Below are positions 17,813-24,252 of a stretch of DNA of 54,695 nt, piece by piece. The stretch's first letter is position 1, and each line of letters opens with the position of its first letter. Under the pieces are notes generated by a model that saw only the letters and a list, made by a program, of their open reading frames with translations, searched no databases and had not been told where the DNA came from. This DNA comes from Bacteroidales bacterium (GTDB lineage Bacteria > Bacteroidota > Bacteroidia > Bacteroidales > GWA2-32-17). The stretch is taken from assembly GCA_026417155.1 (NCBI GenBank), contig JAOADU010000045.1, positions 1 to 54,695 on the forward strand, given 5' to 3'. The position numbers and the translations under genes are program-made.

Positions 17813-19096
17813 TTAAAACTCAAATCCAATATCGCTACGATAATACATATTTTCGAATGAAATTTTTTGCATCGAATCATAAACTTTTTGTTTGGCTTCT
17901 TTCAGTGTTGGAGATTGAGCACTTACTACCAAAACTCTACCTCCATTTGTTACGATTTGATCATTTGCCCATGAAGTTCCTGCATGAAATACTTCTGACG
18001 ATAGATGGTTGAGTCCATATATAATTTTTCCTTTTTCGTATTCCAAAGGATATCCTTTGGATGCAGCGACCACACAAACAGAGTAATTAGAAATGATATC
18101 AAGTTTGCATTGGTGAACAGTTCCGTTAAATAAGCTTTCGAAAAGTTCTAAAATATCAGTTTTCATCCTAGGTAGAATTACTTCGGTTTCAGGGTCGCCT
18201 AAGCGTACATTGTATTCTATAACATAAGGTTCATTGTTGCTTATAAGCAAACCAATAAAGATAAAACCTTTGTAATTTATTTTTTCATGCAATAGCCCAT
18301 AAACTGTTCTATGTACTATTAAATCGTTAATTTTTTTACGTAATTCATTTGTTAAAAAGGGTACGGGAGATATAGCTCCCATGCCGCCGGTATTTAATCC
18401 GGTATCTCCTTCGCCTATACGTTTGTAATCTTTAGCTTCGGGCAATATAGTATATTTTTCTCCGTCGGTAAGTATAAAATACGAGCATTCAATGCCTTTT
18501 AGAAATTGTTCGATGACTACAGTATTACTGGCTTCGCCAAATTTACCATTTAGCATTTCTTCTAATTCTTTGCATGCTTCGTAATAATCGTGAATAATTA
18601 AAACCCCTTTTCCAGCAGCTAAACCATCAGCTTTCAGTACATAAGGCGGATTAAATGTTTTAAGAAATTCTTTACCTTCCTGAATGGTTTGTTTGGTGAC
18701 AATATGGTATTTGGCTGTTGGGATATTATATTTTAGCATAAATTGTTTTGCCCATGATTTGCTTCCTTCTAATTTTGCACCTTCCGATAATGGAGCTATG
18801 ATAAGACAATGACGAGTTTCGTGTTGTTGAGTTAAATAATCGGCTATCCCTTTTACAATAGGTTCTTCAGGACCTACTACTACCATTTTTATGTTATTCT
18901 CTACAATAGTTTGTTTTATTGAATTGAAATCGAGTGGGTGAATATTTATGTTTGTAGCAATTAGAGAAGTACCTGCATTTCCAGGAGCAACAAATAATTT
19001 ATTTAATCTAGGGCTTTGTTTTATTTTCCATGCCAATGCATGTTCTCGAGCACCAGATCCTATTATTAACACATTATATGGATATTGCAGATTCAT
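17813..19096 (-). CDS. purD: Phosphoribosylamine--glycine ligase
   Basis: Second step of de novo purine synthesis: joins glycine to 5-phosphoribosylamine using ATP. The 427-residue length is normal. Motifs are VLIIGSGAREHALAWK at the N-terminus, VVVGPEEPIVKG near 72, the ATP-grasp segments KADGLAAGKGV and GDTGLNTGGMGAISPVP, and YNVRLGDPETEVILPRM for metal and ATP. It sits in a run with other purine-related genes (tadA, LOG) but also directly follows the zinc-ribbon membrane genes by nine bases, a mixed operon. No purine riboswitch or other leader structure is apparent in this short gap. Confidence 0.97.
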   Translation of the reverse strand: MNLQYPYNVLIIGSGAREHALAWKIKQSPRLNKLFVAPGNAGTSLIATNINIHPLDFNSIKQTIVENNIKMVVVGPEEPIVKGIADYLTQQHETRHCLIIAPLSEGAKLEGSKSWAKQFMLKYNIPTAKYHIVTKQTIQEGKEFLKTFNPPYVLKADGLAAGKGVLIIHDYYEACKELEEMLNGKFGEASNTVVIEQFLKGIECSYFILTDGEKYTILPEAKDYKRIGEGDTGLNTGGMGAISPVPFLTNELRKKINDLIVHRTVYGLLHEKINYKGFIFIGLLISNNEPYVIEYNVRLGDPETEVILPRMKTDILELFESLFNGTVHQCKLDIISNYSVCVVAASKGYPLEYEKGKIIYGLNHLSSEVFHAGTSWANDQIVTNGGRVLVVSAQSPTLKEAKQKVYDSMQKISFENMYYRSDIGFEF

Positions 19097-19105
19097 ATTT
19101 GAAAA

Positions 19106-20221
19106 TTATTTATCTAACAAAAATACAATTAATGCAATAATTCCGACAACAAAAAGTATTGTTAATGTAATTTTTACCCAACTATATGGTCTTTCGCCTT
19201 GAACTTCTCCAGTCTGACCATTAACCATAAAGCGATAAATTTTGTTTTTGTAGCGGTAGGCGCTAATCCAAATCGGCAATAAAATGTGCTTAAAAGTTAT
19301 ATCGTCATAATGTACTTTCATGTTTAGAATTTGCTGATGATCGCCTCCTATGTCTTGTCGTATGGCTTGTCTAATAGCAACGTTCATTTTTTCTTTTCCA
19401 ATTTCAAAGCCTTCTTTTACATCTATCTGATATGTTTCTGTTCGAAATCCGCTTAAAAATTTTTCATCGAATGGCACTAGTTCAGATAGATCCCATGGTT
19501 CTAATCGGTCGGTATATTTTTGCGGTAATGATTTGCTAGCTAATACCAGCACATCGTCAAAATTAACATAAACAGTACCACTAACGGGCGTCCAACGAGT
19601 CTTTACAACAGTCCTAGTTCTCGTAACGGTTTTTCCGTTTTCGACAGTTGTATATGTTTCGGTTGTTGTGTAATTGTCGCCACGTAATCCATGATAATGA
19701 GTAATTGTACTGCTATCATAAGTCCAATATGGGATATAGAGTCCTTTAAGTTTTTCTTGTTGAGTAGCGTATTTTTTCAAATCGTTGGGGGCAAACCAGA
19801 GCTTACGCAACCAATTTTGAAAACATTGAAAAGCTCGTTTTGTATCTATTTTAAACGGTAAAACTGACCATGGTTTTATTACATTTTTAATTTCAGAGTT
19901 TTTAACTGTTAATACACTTCCACAAAATGGGCAAAGTTCAGAAACTACATTCGAATCAAAAGTGGTTTGAGCTCCACACGAATTGCATCGCACAGTAGAT
20001 AATTGATGTTTGGGTACTGTATCGCTATGTTTTGAAATAAATGACACATAGTCCATCTCTTCGATGACTACAGGTTCTATATGAATTTCATTTTCTGCAC
20101 CACAGTATTCACATTTTAACTTATTAATTCCCGGAGCGAAAACTAATTTTGCTCCACACTGTTTGCAGGTTACTTCGTGTTGATTGGTTTTTAGGGTTTC
20201 TGTTTCAAAGTCGTTTCCCAT
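19106..20221 (-). CDS. Double zinc-ribbon membrane protein, copy B
   Basis: A 371-residue protein with two four-Cys zinc ribbons at the N-terminus (Cys19/22/37/40 and Cys79/82/97/100), a soluble central region of about 230 residues and one C-terminal membrane helix (about 347-368), preceded by the motif VNGQTGEVQGERP. It is paralogous to the gene just upstream, overlapping it by 17 bases. Proteins with TFIIB-type ribbons next to an SPFH protein occur in B. subtilis ydjG-ydjI and relatives, often misannotated as helicase or PriA fragments. The likely place is the cytoplasmic face of the membrane with the ribbons inside. Molecular role unknown. Confidence 0.75.
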   Translation of the reverse strand: MGNDFETETLKTNQHEVTCKQCGAKLVFAPGINKLKCEYCGAENEIHIEPVVIEEMDYVSFISKHSDTVPKHQLSTVRCNSCGAQTTFDSNVVSELCPFCGSVLTVKNSEIKNVIKPWSVLPFKIDTKRAFQCFQNWLRKLWFAPNDLKKYATQQEKLKGLYIPYWTYDSSTITHYHGLRGDNYTTTETYTTVENGKTVTRTRTVVKTRWTPVSGTVYVNFDDVLVLASKSLPQKYTDRLEPWDLSELVPFDEKFLSGFRTETYQIDVKEGFEIGKEKMNVAIRQAIRQDIGGDHQQILNMKVHYDDITFKHILLPIWISAYRYKNKIYRFMVNGQTGEVQGERPYSWVKITLTILFVVGIIALIVFLLDK

Positions 20222-21338
20222 GGTTAGTATTTTTTAAAGTAAATATTAAAGGAATTCCTATAATCAAGATTAATAAGCCATATAATTCCATTGCTATAAT
20301 TATAAGTCCAATAATTATTACAAAAATAACAAATATCCATAAAAAAATAATTTTTAAAATACTTGTTGGTCGGTTACCTACAACTTGTCCAGTTTGTCCG
20401 TTAACTAAAATCTGATAAATTTTACCTTTGTATTTATAAGCACTGATCCAAACAGGCAAAAAAGCCAAATGATAAAATACTTCCTTGTGTTCGTAAGATA
20501 TTGACTTTACAATAGTTTGGTCGCATTCTTGTTTTTCATATTTTGAGCAAATGTTTTCTTCTAACAATTGCTTTACTTTTGCTGAATTTTCATTAAATGA
20601 CTTAACTATATCTTTCTGCGGTAATAATATGGAATATCCTAGTGTATATAGCTGATTGAATTTAACCTCATTATTAAAATCCCATTGATTGTTCCATGGT
20701 TCAATAATTATTTCATCAAACGTAGGTATAGAAGGGTCAATAAAATAATTAGGGATAACATCGGTTGAAAGTATAGCTAAATGTTTTATTTGTATATCAG
20801 ATTCGCCTTTAATTGTAGTCCACGAAATTTTTTTTGAAAATATTGATTTAATACCGCATTTGATTTGATAATTTACTTTAGTTTTCGTTTTCACAATCCA
20901 ATATGGTATGTACGTAGGTTCAATATTTTCTAATTTTCTGAATTGTTTAACGAAACTGTTGGGAGCTAAATAAATTCGACGCATCCATTGTTTAATATTT
21001 GTTTTGGCTGTTTCTTTTTCAATGTTGAATGGTATAATAGCGTCAAATTCATAAATATTATGCGAATGGATATCATTAAGGTTAATGTTAGAAGAGCAAA
21101 AAGGGCAAGCTTTAGGAATATATTGGCTATGAGAAAAATTTGCACCGCAAGAGTTACATAAAACTAAGTTAGAAACTGGTTGAGATTTTTCATTATGATT
21201 ATCGTTAATGTTGTGCCATTCTATTGGGTTGTTTTGTTGTTCAAAAGCATAAACTGTATGACAATGTATGCACTTTAATGTGGTGGATGCAGGAACATAT
21301 TGCAAATGCCCGCCACAGTTTTGACAAGAATGGTTCAT
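20205..21338 (-). CDS. Double zinc-ribbon membrane protein, copy A
   Basis: A 377-residue protein organised like copy B: zinc ribbons with Cys5/8/23/26 and Cys61/64/78/81, a central domain of about 220 residues, then VNGQTGQVVGNRP and two C-terminal membrane helices (about 331-353 and 356-372), one more than copy B. The two share the Trp/Ile-rich stretch PVWISAYKYKGKIY just before the membrane part, so they arose by duplication and may form a heteromer. It lies three bases after the SPFH gene. A role at the membrane with the SPFH partner is inferred from context only. Confidence 0.75.
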   Translation of the reverse strand: MNHSCQNCGGHLQYVPASTTLKCIHCHTVYAFEQQNNPIEWHNINDNHNEKSQPVSNLVLCNSCGANFSHSQYIPKACPFCSSNINLNDIHSHNIYEFDAIIPFNIEKETAKTNIKQWMRRIYLAPNSFVKQFRKLENIEPTYIPYWIVKTKTKVNYQIKCGIKSIFSKKISWTTIKGESDIQIKHLAILSTDVIPNYFIDPSIPTFDEIIIEPWNNQWDFNNEVKFNQLYTLGYSILLPQKDIVKSFNENSAKVKQLLEENICSKYEKQECDQTIVKSISYEHKEVFYHLAFLPVWISAYKYKGKIYQILVNGQTGQVVGNRPTSILKIIFLWIFVIFVIIIGLIIIAMELYGLLILIIGIPLIFTLKNTNHGKRL

Positions 21339-21341
21339 ACA

Positions 21342-22439
21342 TTATGGCTGGGGTGGTATTGGTGGAGGTACTGTCCCAAATAAATTTTGTAATTCGGCTA
21401 CATTACCAGCATTATCCCAGTTCGACATTCCTTGTCGCCACACTAATGTTTGCTTATTAATTTGGTTTTGACTAATTAATTGTTTAATTGTGTTAATATC
21501 GTATGGACCTGCTTGTTGTCCGTTAATTACAACATAGAATTGGATTTGTGGTGGGACAGGGGGTGGTGTATTTTGCTGTTGCTGTTGGTTCATTGCATTC
21601 ATCATTTGGTTTGCCATTGCAAACCCCATGCCCATACCTAATCCTGCACCTGCTGTTCCCGAAGGATTATTGGCAGCAGCAGTCATAGATTCAGCTGCCT
21701 GAAATTGTGTATATTTGTTTAAATCGCCAATAATGCCCATGCTTGTGCGTTTATCAAGAGCTTCCTCGACGTTAGGAGGTAATGAAATATTTGCAACTAA
21801 AAATTTTGTTAGTTCTATACCATACTCATTGAATTCTGGTTTAATTTTTTGTTCTAAATATTTTGACAGTTCATCATAGTTCGATGCCATATCGAGTACA
21901 GGTATTTTAGCTTCTCCTATGGCATCTGTAAAACGTGTAACCACTATGTTTTTTAATTGTTCTGTTATTTTGTCGGTTGTAAAATTTCCATCGGTTCCTA
22001 CTATTTCTTTAATAAACTTAGCAGGGTCGATTACTTTCATTGCATAATTCCCGAATGCACGGATGCGTATAGGACCAAATTCAGGATCACGAAGCATAAT
22101 GGGATTAGGCGTGCCCCACTTTAAGTCGGTAAAGTTTTTAGTATTGATGAAATACACTTCGGCTTTGAATGGACTATTAAATCCGTATTTCCAACCTTTT
22201 AAAGTTGATAATATGGGCAAGTTTTCGGTTGTAAGAGTGTACATACCGGGTTGAAAAATGTCGGCAATTTGCCCTTCATTTATGAATACTGCTACTTGTG
22301 ATTCGCGAACGGTTAGTTTTGCACCATTTTTTATTTCATTTTGATATCGTTCGAAACGATAAACCATCGTATCATTGGTGGGGTCGAGCCATTCAATGAT
22401 ATCAATAAATTCGCCTCGGAGTTTGTCAAAAAGTCCCAT
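21342..22439 (-). CDS. SPFH domain protein with C-terminal GYF_2 domain (YdjI-like)
   Basis: A 365-residue soluble protein. Residues about 20-235 form a YdjI/virion-core type SPFH (band-7-like) domain with the family segments NEGQIADIFQPGMYTLTT and FGNYAMKVIDPAKF. A Met/Gly/Gln-rich linker (about 250-298, with a five-Gln run) leads to a GYF_2 domain at about 300-355 (GPYDINTIKQ, then VWRQGMSNW), usually a proline-motif or peptide binder, followed by a short Pro-rich tail PPPIPPQP. It lacks a membrane helix and probably reaches the membrane through the zinc-ribbon partners encoded right after it. Such proteins are linked to membrane stress in B. subtilis. Confidence 0.85.
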   Translation of the reverse strand: MGLFDKLRGEFIDIIEWLDPTNDTMVYRFERYQNEIKNGAKLTVRESQVAVFINEGQIADIFQPGMYTLTTENLPILSTLKGWKYGFNSPFKAEVYFINTKNFTDLKWGTPNPIMLRDPEFGPIRIRAFGNYAMKVIDPAKFIKEIVGTDGNFTTDKITEQLKNIVVTRFTDAIGEAKIPVLDMASNYDELSKYLEQKIKPEFNEYGIELTKFLVANISLPPNVEEALDKRTSMGIIGDLNKYTQFQAAESMTAAANNPSGTAGAGLGMGMGFAMANQMMNAMNQQQQQNTPPPVPPQIQFYVVINGQQAGPYDINTIKQLISQNQINKQTLVWRQGMSNWDNAGNVAELQNLFGTVPPPIPPQP

Positions 22440-22457: not shown

Positions 22458-23606
22458 TTATTCAATTCTATCGATAAATAATATTCCATTTAGATGGTCA
22501 ATTTCATGTTGGAAAATAACGGAAGTGAAGTTTGACATGGTTGTTCCTTGGACAACTTCTGTCTTGTGCGTTCCATCAAGTAAATCGTATTCAATACCAA
22601 TGGCAGAAAATCTACGTGTTCTACCCGTTATACCGGGAATAGATAAACAACCGTCGCCATTAAACAGTATTGTATTTTGCGATGTCATAACAATTTTAGG
22701 ATTGAGATAAACTTCGAATGGTTGACCAGGGCGGTCGAGTCGTTTAACCCATATTACATTACGATTGATACCAACTTGTGGTGCAGCTATACCAACGCCA
22801 CTTGTAGCATCTAAAGCTTTTTTCATTCGTTTAATTAAAGTTTTTAATACAATATCGTTCGAGTCGGGACGAACATTAATACTTTGTTTTCTCAAAATAA
22901 GTGAGTCTTGATAATTTGTTGTAAGTAAAATACGCATTGCAATTGAGTCAGGTTTAGCCATAATTGAATCAATTTCCTGACCTGTAAATGCAAGAGGATC
23001 TTGTGTTGTAGGAAGAATACCCCCACCTAAATGTGTTATAGCATGCTGTACGTATGAGGCTGTTTCTGTTTCAATCATTTCTACTTGTTTCTTTCCTTCA
23101 ATGGTGTAGTATTCAACGAAAATTAAATTATATCGAGCAATAGAAGCAGGGTAATTATTGGGCAAAGTAGCACAAGTTTCGTTGTAAATGGTTGTTGCAT
23201 TTGAATGTTGGGTAATAACAGGATTTATCAGTACTTCAAAAGGTTCACCAGTTTTGTCTTTACGCTTAACAATGATAATATTTCTGTTTATACCTATTTC
23301 GGGAGCTGCTATGCTAGTTAGATTATGTTGTTTTATGGTTTTAAGCATGCGACGGTAAAGATGCAAGGTGGTATCATTGGGCACCTTAACATTTTTTGAC
23401 TTTTTTTGAAGAATTTGTAAATCATTTGGAAGACTTGCATTTAAAAAAGTAAAAGGCTGGGTTGTGTCACCAGAAAATATGATAGACGCTTCATTTGAAG
23501 TAAAGAATAAAGAGTCTTTAACTATTGGTAATTCGTTTTCTTTTTTACAGTGATAAAATGAAAAGGATATTATTAATATAAAAAATGCAACACAAAAAAA
23601 TTTCAT
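22458..23606 (-). CDS. Exported lipoprotein with two tandem peptide deformylase domains
   Basis: A 382-residue protein with a lipoprotein signal peptide ending at Cys20 (FSFYHC-KK) and two PDF folds. The C-terminal copy (about 245-382) is intact: GVGIAAPQVG (270-279), DGCLSIP with Cys320, and QHEIDH with His367, Glu368, His371. The N-terminal copy (about 62-200) keeps TSIAAPEIG, Cys145 in NETCATLP, and His188/His192, but reads QHAITH, so the catalytic Glu is Ala189. It may bind metal without catalysis. Normal deformylase works on nascent chains in the cytoplasm, so an exported one needs another substrate. The start at 23606 was chosen because an in-frame TTG at 23636 lies in the promoter. It leads the SPFH operon by an 18-base gap. 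Confidence 0.85.
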   Translation of the reverse strand: MKFFCVAFFILIISFSFYHCKKENELPIVKDSLFFTSNEASIIFSGDTTQPFTFLNASLPNDLQILQKKSKNVKVPNDTTLHLYRRMLKTIKQHNLTSIAAPEIGINRNIIIVKRKDKTGEPFEVLINPVITQHSNATTIYNETCATLPNNYPASIARYNLIFVEYYTIEGKKQVEMIETETASYVQHAITHLGGGILPTTQDPLAFTGQEIDSIMAKPDSIAMRILLTTNYQDSLILRKQSINVRPDSNDIVLKTLIKRMKKALDATSGVGIAAPQVGINRNVIWVKRLDRPGQPFEVYLNPKIVMTSQNTILFNGDGCLSIPGITGRTRRFSAIGIEYDLLDGTHKTEVVQGTTMSNFTSVIFQHEIDHLNGILFIDRIE

Positions 23607-23633: not shown

Positions 23634-23641
23634 CAAATATA
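23634..23641 (-). promoter_or_regulatory. -7 promoter element of the tandem-deformylase operon
   Basis: Reads TATATTTG on the minus strand, 27 bases upstream of the ATG at 23606. It overlaps an in-frame TTG at 23636, which rules that codon out as the start. It may drive the whole nine-gene run down to 14427, since no gap within that run exceeds 20 bases. Confidence 0.6.
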
Positions 23642-23665: not shown

Positions 23666-24229
23666 TCAGATAGTTAATATTTCTTTTTCTTTGTTTACAA
23701 GGATATCATCAATTTTATTGATGTATTGATCTGTTATTTTTTGAATTTTTTCTTCTGCTTCTTTTATTTCATCTTCAGCGATACCTTCTTTTTTTAATTT
23801 TTTTAGTTCTTCGTTGGCATCTCTGCGAGCATTTCTTATACCGATTTTTGCAGTTTCACCTTCATTTTTTACTTGTTTTACGAGTTGTTTTCTTCTTTCT
23901 TCGCTTAATGGAGGTACAATAATACGAAGAATTTCGCCATTATTTTGAGGGTTAAATCCTAAATTGCTAGCTTGAATAGCTTTTTCAATAGGTTCAAGCA
24001 TACTTTTATCCCATGGTTGAACTATAATAGTGCGAGGATCGGGGGCTGCAATATTGGCAACTTGATTTAATGGGCTTTTAGTACCATAATAATCAACATA
24101 AATTCCATCAAGCATTATTGGTGATGCTTTACCTGCTCTAATTTTTAATAATTCAGACTCAAGATGCTTAATAACTTTATCCATTTGTTCTTTTGTTGAA
24201 TCAATACAAAATAATACTTCTTCACTCAT
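23666..24229 (-). CDS. frr: Ribosome recycling factor
   Basis: Splits post-termination ribosomes with EF-G. The 187-residue length is standard. Typical segments are the N-terminal helix (MDKVIKHLESELLKIRAGKA), the beta domain with VDYYGTKSPLNQVANI, IVQPWDKSM and AIQASNLGFNP, then IVPPLSEERRKQLVKQVK and the long C-terminal helix. The start at 24229 (MSEEVLF) is preferred: an in-frame TTG at 24247 lies inside the promoter element. In many bacteria frr follows pyrH; here it follows an exported DUF3575-like gene but with its own promoter. Confidence 0.96.
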   Translation of the reverse strand: MSEEVLFCIDSTKEQMDKVIKHLESELLKIRAGKASPIMLDGIYVDYYGTKSPLNQVANIAAPDPRTIIVQPWDKSMLEPIEKAIQASNLGFNPQNNGEILRIIVPPLSEERRKQLVKQVKNEGETAKIGIRNARRDANEELKKLKKEGIAEDEIKEAEEKIQKITDQYINKIDDILVNKEKEILTI

Positions 24230-24244
24230 ATACTTTATTTTTTG

Positions 24245-24252
24245 CAAAAGTA
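24245..24252 (-). promoter_or_regulatory. -7 promoter element of frr
   Basis: TACTTTTG on the minus strand, matching TAnnTTTG, with the frr ATG 16 bases downstream, implying a very short leader. It overlaps the TTG that would otherwise extend the gene. Confidence 0.6.

Follow-up and report, generated by a model that had tools for sequence, protein, structure and literature searches.

Deformylation is usually viewed as a cytoplasmic, ribosome-linked reaction, and the fate of the formyl groups kept by membrane and exported proteins is an open question. Deformylation is blocked when SRP binds, and it is proposed that inner-membrane proteins of N-out topology, LepB among them, keep their formyl-Met, the use of the retained group being said to be unknown (PMC5454389). 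According to the main text of a recent survey of accessory peptide deformylases (PDFs), membrane or exported proteins as a rule evade deformylation, and the C-terminal extension of E. coli PDF helps ribosome binding (Lamberioux et al. 2025, PMC12690207). The accessory PDFs are presented there as mobile or chromosomal enzymes tied to actinonin resistance. That main text does not mention lipoprotein, tandem or Bacteroidota PDFs, and no description of an exported, secreted, periplasmic or lipoprotein PDF was found in the open-access literature. In this sense, that no report was found there, the exported PDF family considered here is apparently undescribed.

The window, the whole stretch of 54,695 nucleotides that was analysed, carries a gene in which two PDF domains follow a signal sequence:

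22458..23606, minus strand: tandem exported peptide deformylase, 382 aa, with its ATG at 23606
23547..23606, minus strand: signal sequence, residues 1-20, a hydrophobic core followed by FYHC, Cys20 being position +1
23001..23507, minus strand: N-terminal PDF domain, residues 34-202, with Cys145, His188 and His192 kept, Glu103 in place of the catalytic Gln and Ala189 in place of the catalytic Glu
22464..22991, minus strand: C-terminal PDF domain, residues 206-381, with Gln277, Cys320, Leu321, His367, Glu368 and His371 all present
23634..23641, minus strand: TATATTTG, a candidate Bacteroidota-type -7 promoter element, about 30 bases before the ATG

Start, export signal and neighbours of the tandem gene

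The gene reads on the minus strand only, the plus strand over 22458-23606 being full of stops, and the protein translated from the ATG at 23606 begins MKFFCVAFFILIISFSFYHCKKENE. This start is preferred because the longer TTG start of the ORF caller (23636), which was dropped, overlaps TATATTTG, and this promoter-like element is placed alike, at -33 to -37, in two congeners (G001 and G003). It should be noted that TATATTTG-type sites are no more numerous in the whole window than expected by chance, the conserved position being the sole support for the element; a scan for sigma-70 promoters likewise gave matches at chance level. Cys20, which follows the hydrophobic segment, is an invariant column in 18 of 18 aligned relatives, single-domain ones included. 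Thus, the start lies upstream of the lipobox, and a wrong start, or one below the lipobox, is ruled out.

The protein therefore has the signal sequence and lipobox Cys of a Bacteroidota lipoprotein, as originally predicted, though the lipobox is imperfect: its -1 residue is a non-canonical His, replaced by Asn or Gly in some relatives. The mature N-terminus, CKKENE, has Lys at +2 and +3, acidic residues at +4 and +6 and Asn at +5, and so matches only in part X-K-(D/E)2-3, the surface lipoprotein export signal (LES) that follows the Cys in C. canimorsus (Lauber et al., PMC5080379).

A canonical def gene, encoding 186 aa, lies elsewhere in the same genome (G000, contig C18), directly after ruvX/yqgF. 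The tandem protein differs from a housekeeping Def in its signal sequence, in its clade and in its tail, which extends one residue past the C-terminal domain, the long cytoplasmic-type C-terminal tail being absent. That it is the housekeeping enzyme is ruled out by the separate def together with the invariant Cys20, in agreement with the original prediction. None of the observations named in advance as counting against that prediction, namely orthologues without a signal sequence, a start downstream of the lipobox or a genome with no other def, was encountered for this gene. More widely, 35 of the 37 genomes carrying an exported PDF have a separate canonical def. In the assemblies of the other two (G035 and G042) only the exported PDF was seen; we tentatively ascribe this to gaps in the assemblies, since in G272, a congener of G042, both genes are present.

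The gene stands between frr and a tight run of four genes:

23666..24247, minus strand: frr (ribosome recycling factor), upstream of the tandem PDF gene
21342..22439, minus strand: protein with SPFH (Band_7_1) and GYF_2 domains, starting 18 bases after the PDF stop
20205..21338, minus strand: zinc-ribbon membrane protein with no Pfam family, in the same apparent operon
19106..20221, minus strand: second zinc-ribbon membrane protein, its zinc-ribbon matches weak and below cut-off, in the same apparent operon
17813..19096, minus strand: purD (GARS domains), the last gene of the tight run

Successive intervals from the PDF gene to purD are 18, 3, -17 and 9 bases, and the C-terminus of the ribosome recycling factor lies directly upstream of the PDF in G001 and G002 as well. 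An operon of the predicted kind, with SPFH and zinc-ribbon genes, does exist, SPFH adjoining the PDF in 9 of the 10 genomes of the window's family. It does not hold throughout, however: G002, of the window's own genus, has the tandem PDF and lacks SPFH, and in five genomes elsewhere in the order (G025, G028, G035, G037 and G056) the two genes lie on different contigs or one occurs without the other. The operon is thus lineage-specific. SPFH being separable from the exported PDF, the neighbours say little about function, and an assignment of function by association with SPFH was dropped for this reason. Among 27 other exported PDF loci there is no neighbour shared phylum-wide, and no partner gene, for instance one for an exported methionine aminopeptidase, is conserved next to the exported PDF. 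The SPFH-GYF gene and the two zinc-ribbon membrane genes (19106-22439) presumably resemble the YdjI/YdjG membrane-stress pair of B. subtilis. At four Flavobacteriaceae loci (L035, 316-8746; L038; L040; L043) the exported PDF comes after mreBCD-mrdA-rodA in the same orientation, with gldC/gldB facing it.

Residues and predicted folds of the two halves

The presence of two PDF domains in one chain is borne out by Pfam, PF01327 matching the protein in two stretches (204 bits, E 1e-60). The C-terminal half has GVGIAAPQ, DGCLS(IP) and QHEIDH where the PDF motifs are GxGxAAxQ, EGCLS and QHExDH, so that its motifs are intact as first reported. The one change is in motif II, whose opening E is D here, as it is in 19 of 65 single exported PDFs. 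The corresponding segments of the N-terminal half, SIAAPE, ETCAT and QHAITH, do not match the motifs and keep the metal ligands alone.

The original prediction described the N-terminal half as lacking only the catalytic Glu. This understates its divergence. Residues are numbered here according to the E. coli PDF sequence as we assume it to read; the motif positions agree with the published motifs. In this numbering, Gln50, which belongs to the oxyanion site, is Glu in all nine orthologues, in which Gly43 of motif I is also lost and Ser92 is Thr; Leu91 is variable and Asp135 mostly lost. Nor is the loss of Glu the defining mark of this half, since position 133 is Ala in three orthologues, His in one and still Glu in five; the loss is limited to the window's genus, and the sister genus retains Glu. 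The metal ligands, by contrast with these positions, are invariant in 9/9, as are Arg102 and Gln131. What stands of the earlier description is a C-terminal half that its sequence marks as competent, joined to a degenerate N-terminal half that retains its metal ligands (Cys145, His188 and His192).

Structure prediction, proposed at the outset as a check, likewise places both halves among the PDFs of the PDB. An AlphaFold2 model of the N-terminal half alone, made with an alignment of relatives, has a pLDDT of 87.6, and PDFs make up all of its best PDB matches (Foldseek, E 1.6e-12). Within the full-length model the C-terminal half has a pLDDT of about 98 and also matches PDFs in the PDB (Foldseek, E 4.3e-14). 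The full-length model has a pTM of 0.54, at which the relative placement of the halves is unreliable. On these models, both halves are predicted to have the PDF fold.

Exported deformylases across Bacteroidota and the origin of the tandem

The original prediction missed the spread of single-domain exported PDFs across Bacteroidota. Such proteins, which are lipoproteins or signal-peptidase-I types and are annotated by NCBIfam plainly as "peptide deformylase", were found in Flavobacteriaceae, Weeksellaceae, Sphingobacteriaceae, Reichenbachiellaceae and Bacteroidales MAGs. The genome scan matched Tamlana, Leeuwenhoekiella, Flavivirga, Aestuariibaculum, Paucihalobacter, Reichenbachiella, Parapedobacter, Sphingobacterium, Flavobacterium, Chryseobacterium, Epilithonimonas, Dysgonomonas, Tidjanibacter and other Bacteroidales MAGs, together with one Myxococcota MAG. 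A score gap in the order sample parts exported PDFs (at least 172 bits for the best copy) from housekeeping ones (at most 148 bits). An exported PDF is present in 30 of 198 genomes of this sample and in 8 of 295 of the class sample, the window's own included, and none of about 90 genomes from other classes reached the exported score range.

Export signals were scored by a simple scheme of our own, not SignalP. Among 85 exported-type ORFs it assigned a lipobox to 63, a signal-peptidase-I site with Gln directly after it, in line with the Q rule of Bacteroidota, to 16, a hydrophobic core only to 4 and no signal to 2. Of these last two, L252 is truncated at the end of its locus and L077 on inspection has the lipobox MRKLLYMTIFSTIFLSSC. 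No export signal was seen in 72 of the 75 other ORFs, and one of the remaining three is a cut tandem copy. The median number of residues beyond the domain is 8 in exported and 29 in cytoplasmic PDFs. All 65 single exported PDFs and all 8 C-terminal halves retain Gly43, Gly45, Gln50, Leu91, Ser92, His132, Glu133 and His136, which argues that the exported proteins are maintained as enzymes and are not decaying.

Several members depart from the common form. In Weeksellaceae (Chryseobacterium, Epilithonimonas and kin; loci L058, L059, L061, L063-L065, L069-L072 and L195) the metal-ligand Cys of the exported PDFs is replaced by Asp (EGDLSIP), and their signal has a signal-peptidase-I site with Gln. 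The chemistry or the metal may therefore differ there; the change could reflect an oxidising compartment or the use of another metal. A 422-aa frame on the minus strand of L255 (G548) joins an exported PDF to an N-terminal DUF1684 (PF07920, E 5e-44), of which Parapedobacter L049 seems to keep a trace. The 518-aa protein of L054 (844-2397) has a C-terminal PDF after a segment weakly resembling Por_Secre_tail, a hint at an extracellular form. L252 (G309, contig C12, 29627-31699) has two adjacent exported PDF genes, one of them in a 558-aa open frame. As for the Myxococcota lipoprotein PDFs, L067 groups weakly with those of Bacteroidota and L082 is a long branch beside cytoplasmic PDFs; the differing positions suggest that export may have more than one origin.

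The tandem form was found in 9 of the 10 genomes of the window's family, one copy being broken by a contig end. The tenth genome (G005) has a single-domain lipoprotein PDF adjoining the same SPFH gene, and single-domain lipoprotein PDFs also occur in other families of the order. Among these sequences, the tandem is confined to one Bacteroidales family, and it is a local elaboration of the exported family. A quick tree of 133 rows was complemented by a careful one of 79 domains, from which the known type 3 PDF-like sequences were left out. In the latter, exported and cytoplasmic PDFs are separated by a branch at 100/98, recovered in 100% of bootstraps, and the N-terminal halves form one group (100/99) within the exported side. 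Thus, the tandem arose through duplication of an exported PDF. The two halves are not joined in the free tree, and an AU test of their sisterhood gave a borderline p of 0.05. A viral origin was considered and rejected, the viral_contigs scan having matched single PDFs only, at 29-42% identity, with no tandem among them.

Possible functions and comparison with known systems

The retention of the catalytic residues in all 65 single proteins and all eight C-terminal halves makes an active envelope deformylase the simplest reading. It is, in our opinion, somewhat probable that the protein would act outside the cytoplasm on formyl-Met N-termini that escape the cytoplasmic enzyme. A lipid on Cys20, or else an uncleaved signal, would probably hold the protein at the membrane. 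Its C-terminal half would deformylate N-formyl-Met peptides as other PDFs do, with Cys320, His367 and His371 holding the metal, Glu368 activating water, and Gln277 together with the backbone of Leu321 holding the oxyanion. Likely substrates would be the N-termini of N-out inner-membrane proteins and of freed signal peptides; SRP may shield such N-termini from the cytoplasmic enzyme, so that formyl-Met would arrive in the envelope. The patchy distribution (30/198 in the order, 8/295 in the class, 0 of about 90 outside) fits an accessory task better than general N-out processing. While the export signals, the separate clade, the short tail and the normal def alongside favour this reading, the want of a conserved adjoining partner, the Asp of the Weeksellaceae proteins and the His at -1 of the lipobox count against it.

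The enzyme could instead scavenge or clear N-formyl peptides from outside, released by lysed bacteria or organelles, as a periplasm- or surface-facing enzyme that feeds aminopeptidases and dipeptidyl peptidases or stops phagocyte signalling. The lipoprotein form, the partial likeness of CKKENE to the C. canimorsus signal (PMC5080379), the extracellular-type segment fused in L054 and a patchiness suited to a niche trait are consistent with such a role; we consider it unlikely, as flavobacterial members (CSSTK, CSIAK) have no acidic export signal, members come from many lineages, cultured marine genera among them, and no peptidase or uptake genes are linked. A repurposed amidase, turning PDF chemistry on another N-formyl or N-acyl compound of the envelope (a sugar, lipid or amino acid), would account for a pocket wall partly unlike that of cytoplasmic PDFs (Phe or Tyr at position 125 in all, mostly Val, Ile or His in place of Arg at 128), and the DUF1684 fusion and the placement right after mreBCD-mrdA-rodA in Flavobacteriaceae could be read in the same way. 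Against this, all three PDF motifs are canonical, the C-terminal half is closest to ordinary PDFs in fold and sequence, and neighbours differ between lineages, which makes an amidase distinctly improbable. Least probable is a periplasmic decoy that would bind natural PDF inhibitors such as actinonin and protect the cytoplasmic enzyme. The drug would reach an exported copy before the cytoplasmic one, the N-terminal half has a metal site without full catalysis, and accessory PDFs can, as described in the main text of the survey, lower inhibitor susceptibility (PMC12690207). A sink, however, has no need to keep Gln50, Leu91 and Glu133, which are kept in 73/73, and position 97 in the C-terminal halves of the family is Thr, Ser or Tyr, not Arg, an Arg-to-Tyr change underlying the reduced susceptibility of Def2.

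The N-terminal half calls for a separate judgement. That it is a decaying pseudo-domain with no role would agree with its faster evolution (orthologue identity 39-84%, as against 63-94% for the C-terminal half), with the variation at position 133 and with the single-domain protein of G005 in the same family. We nevertheless regard decay as a rather poor explanation. None of the nine orthologues has a frameshift or stop in this half, and dN/dS is 0.05-0.12 where computable, a rough figure owing to codon saturation. Since the ratio is far under 1 wherever dS is unsaturated, the half is diverging but kept. Its metal ligands, Arg102 and Gln131 do not vary, and the change of Gln50 to Glu is fixed, not random. 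The N-terminal half thus appears to keep a metal-binding fold under purifying selection without the residues needed for catalysis. As a tandem duplicate of an exported PDF that retains the metal site and has Glu for the oxyanion Gln, it probably partners the active half, in a structural role or by binding peptides, and is less likely to be a second enzyme.

Taken with the preferred reading of an active envelope deformylase, these results suggest that formyl tags are removed in the cell envelope too. A broader and more tentative proposal, about which we have considerable doubt, is that Bacteroidota may perform dedicated deformylation outside the cytoplasm by exported PDFs, completing the N-terminal processing of N-out membrane proteins and of signal peptides, and that in one Bacteroidales family a metal-bound, non-catalytic half may present formyl peptides to the active half or sense them for it. 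A conserved exported deformylase family, catalytically intact as far as residues can tell and standing beside a normal def, opens the question of formyl fate to direct testing. The answer would bear on how the N-termini of membrane proteins are processed, on the formyl-peptide signals read by innate immunity and on the site of action of PDF inhibitors.

Among described systems, cytoplasmic Def (PF01327, TIGR00079, types 1A and 1B) shares with the C-terminal half the fold, the three motifs, the metal ligands and the catalytic Gln, Glu and Leu; unlike it, the exported PDFs have a signal sequence or lipobox, a short tail and a clade of their own. The phage PDF S-SSM7 (PDB 3uwa) is the top sequence match among solved structures and also has a short C-terminus, but it has no signal sequence. 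The accessory PDFs, as the survey's main text presents them (PMC12690207), are likewise second PDFs beside a canonical one. The type 3 PDF-like proteins of S. aureus and S. pneumoniae named in the same text have motif I and II substitutions that lower or abolish activity, and the N-terminal half has such substitutions; in contrast to those proteins, it is fused to an intact copy, has an export signal, and lies inside the exported clade.
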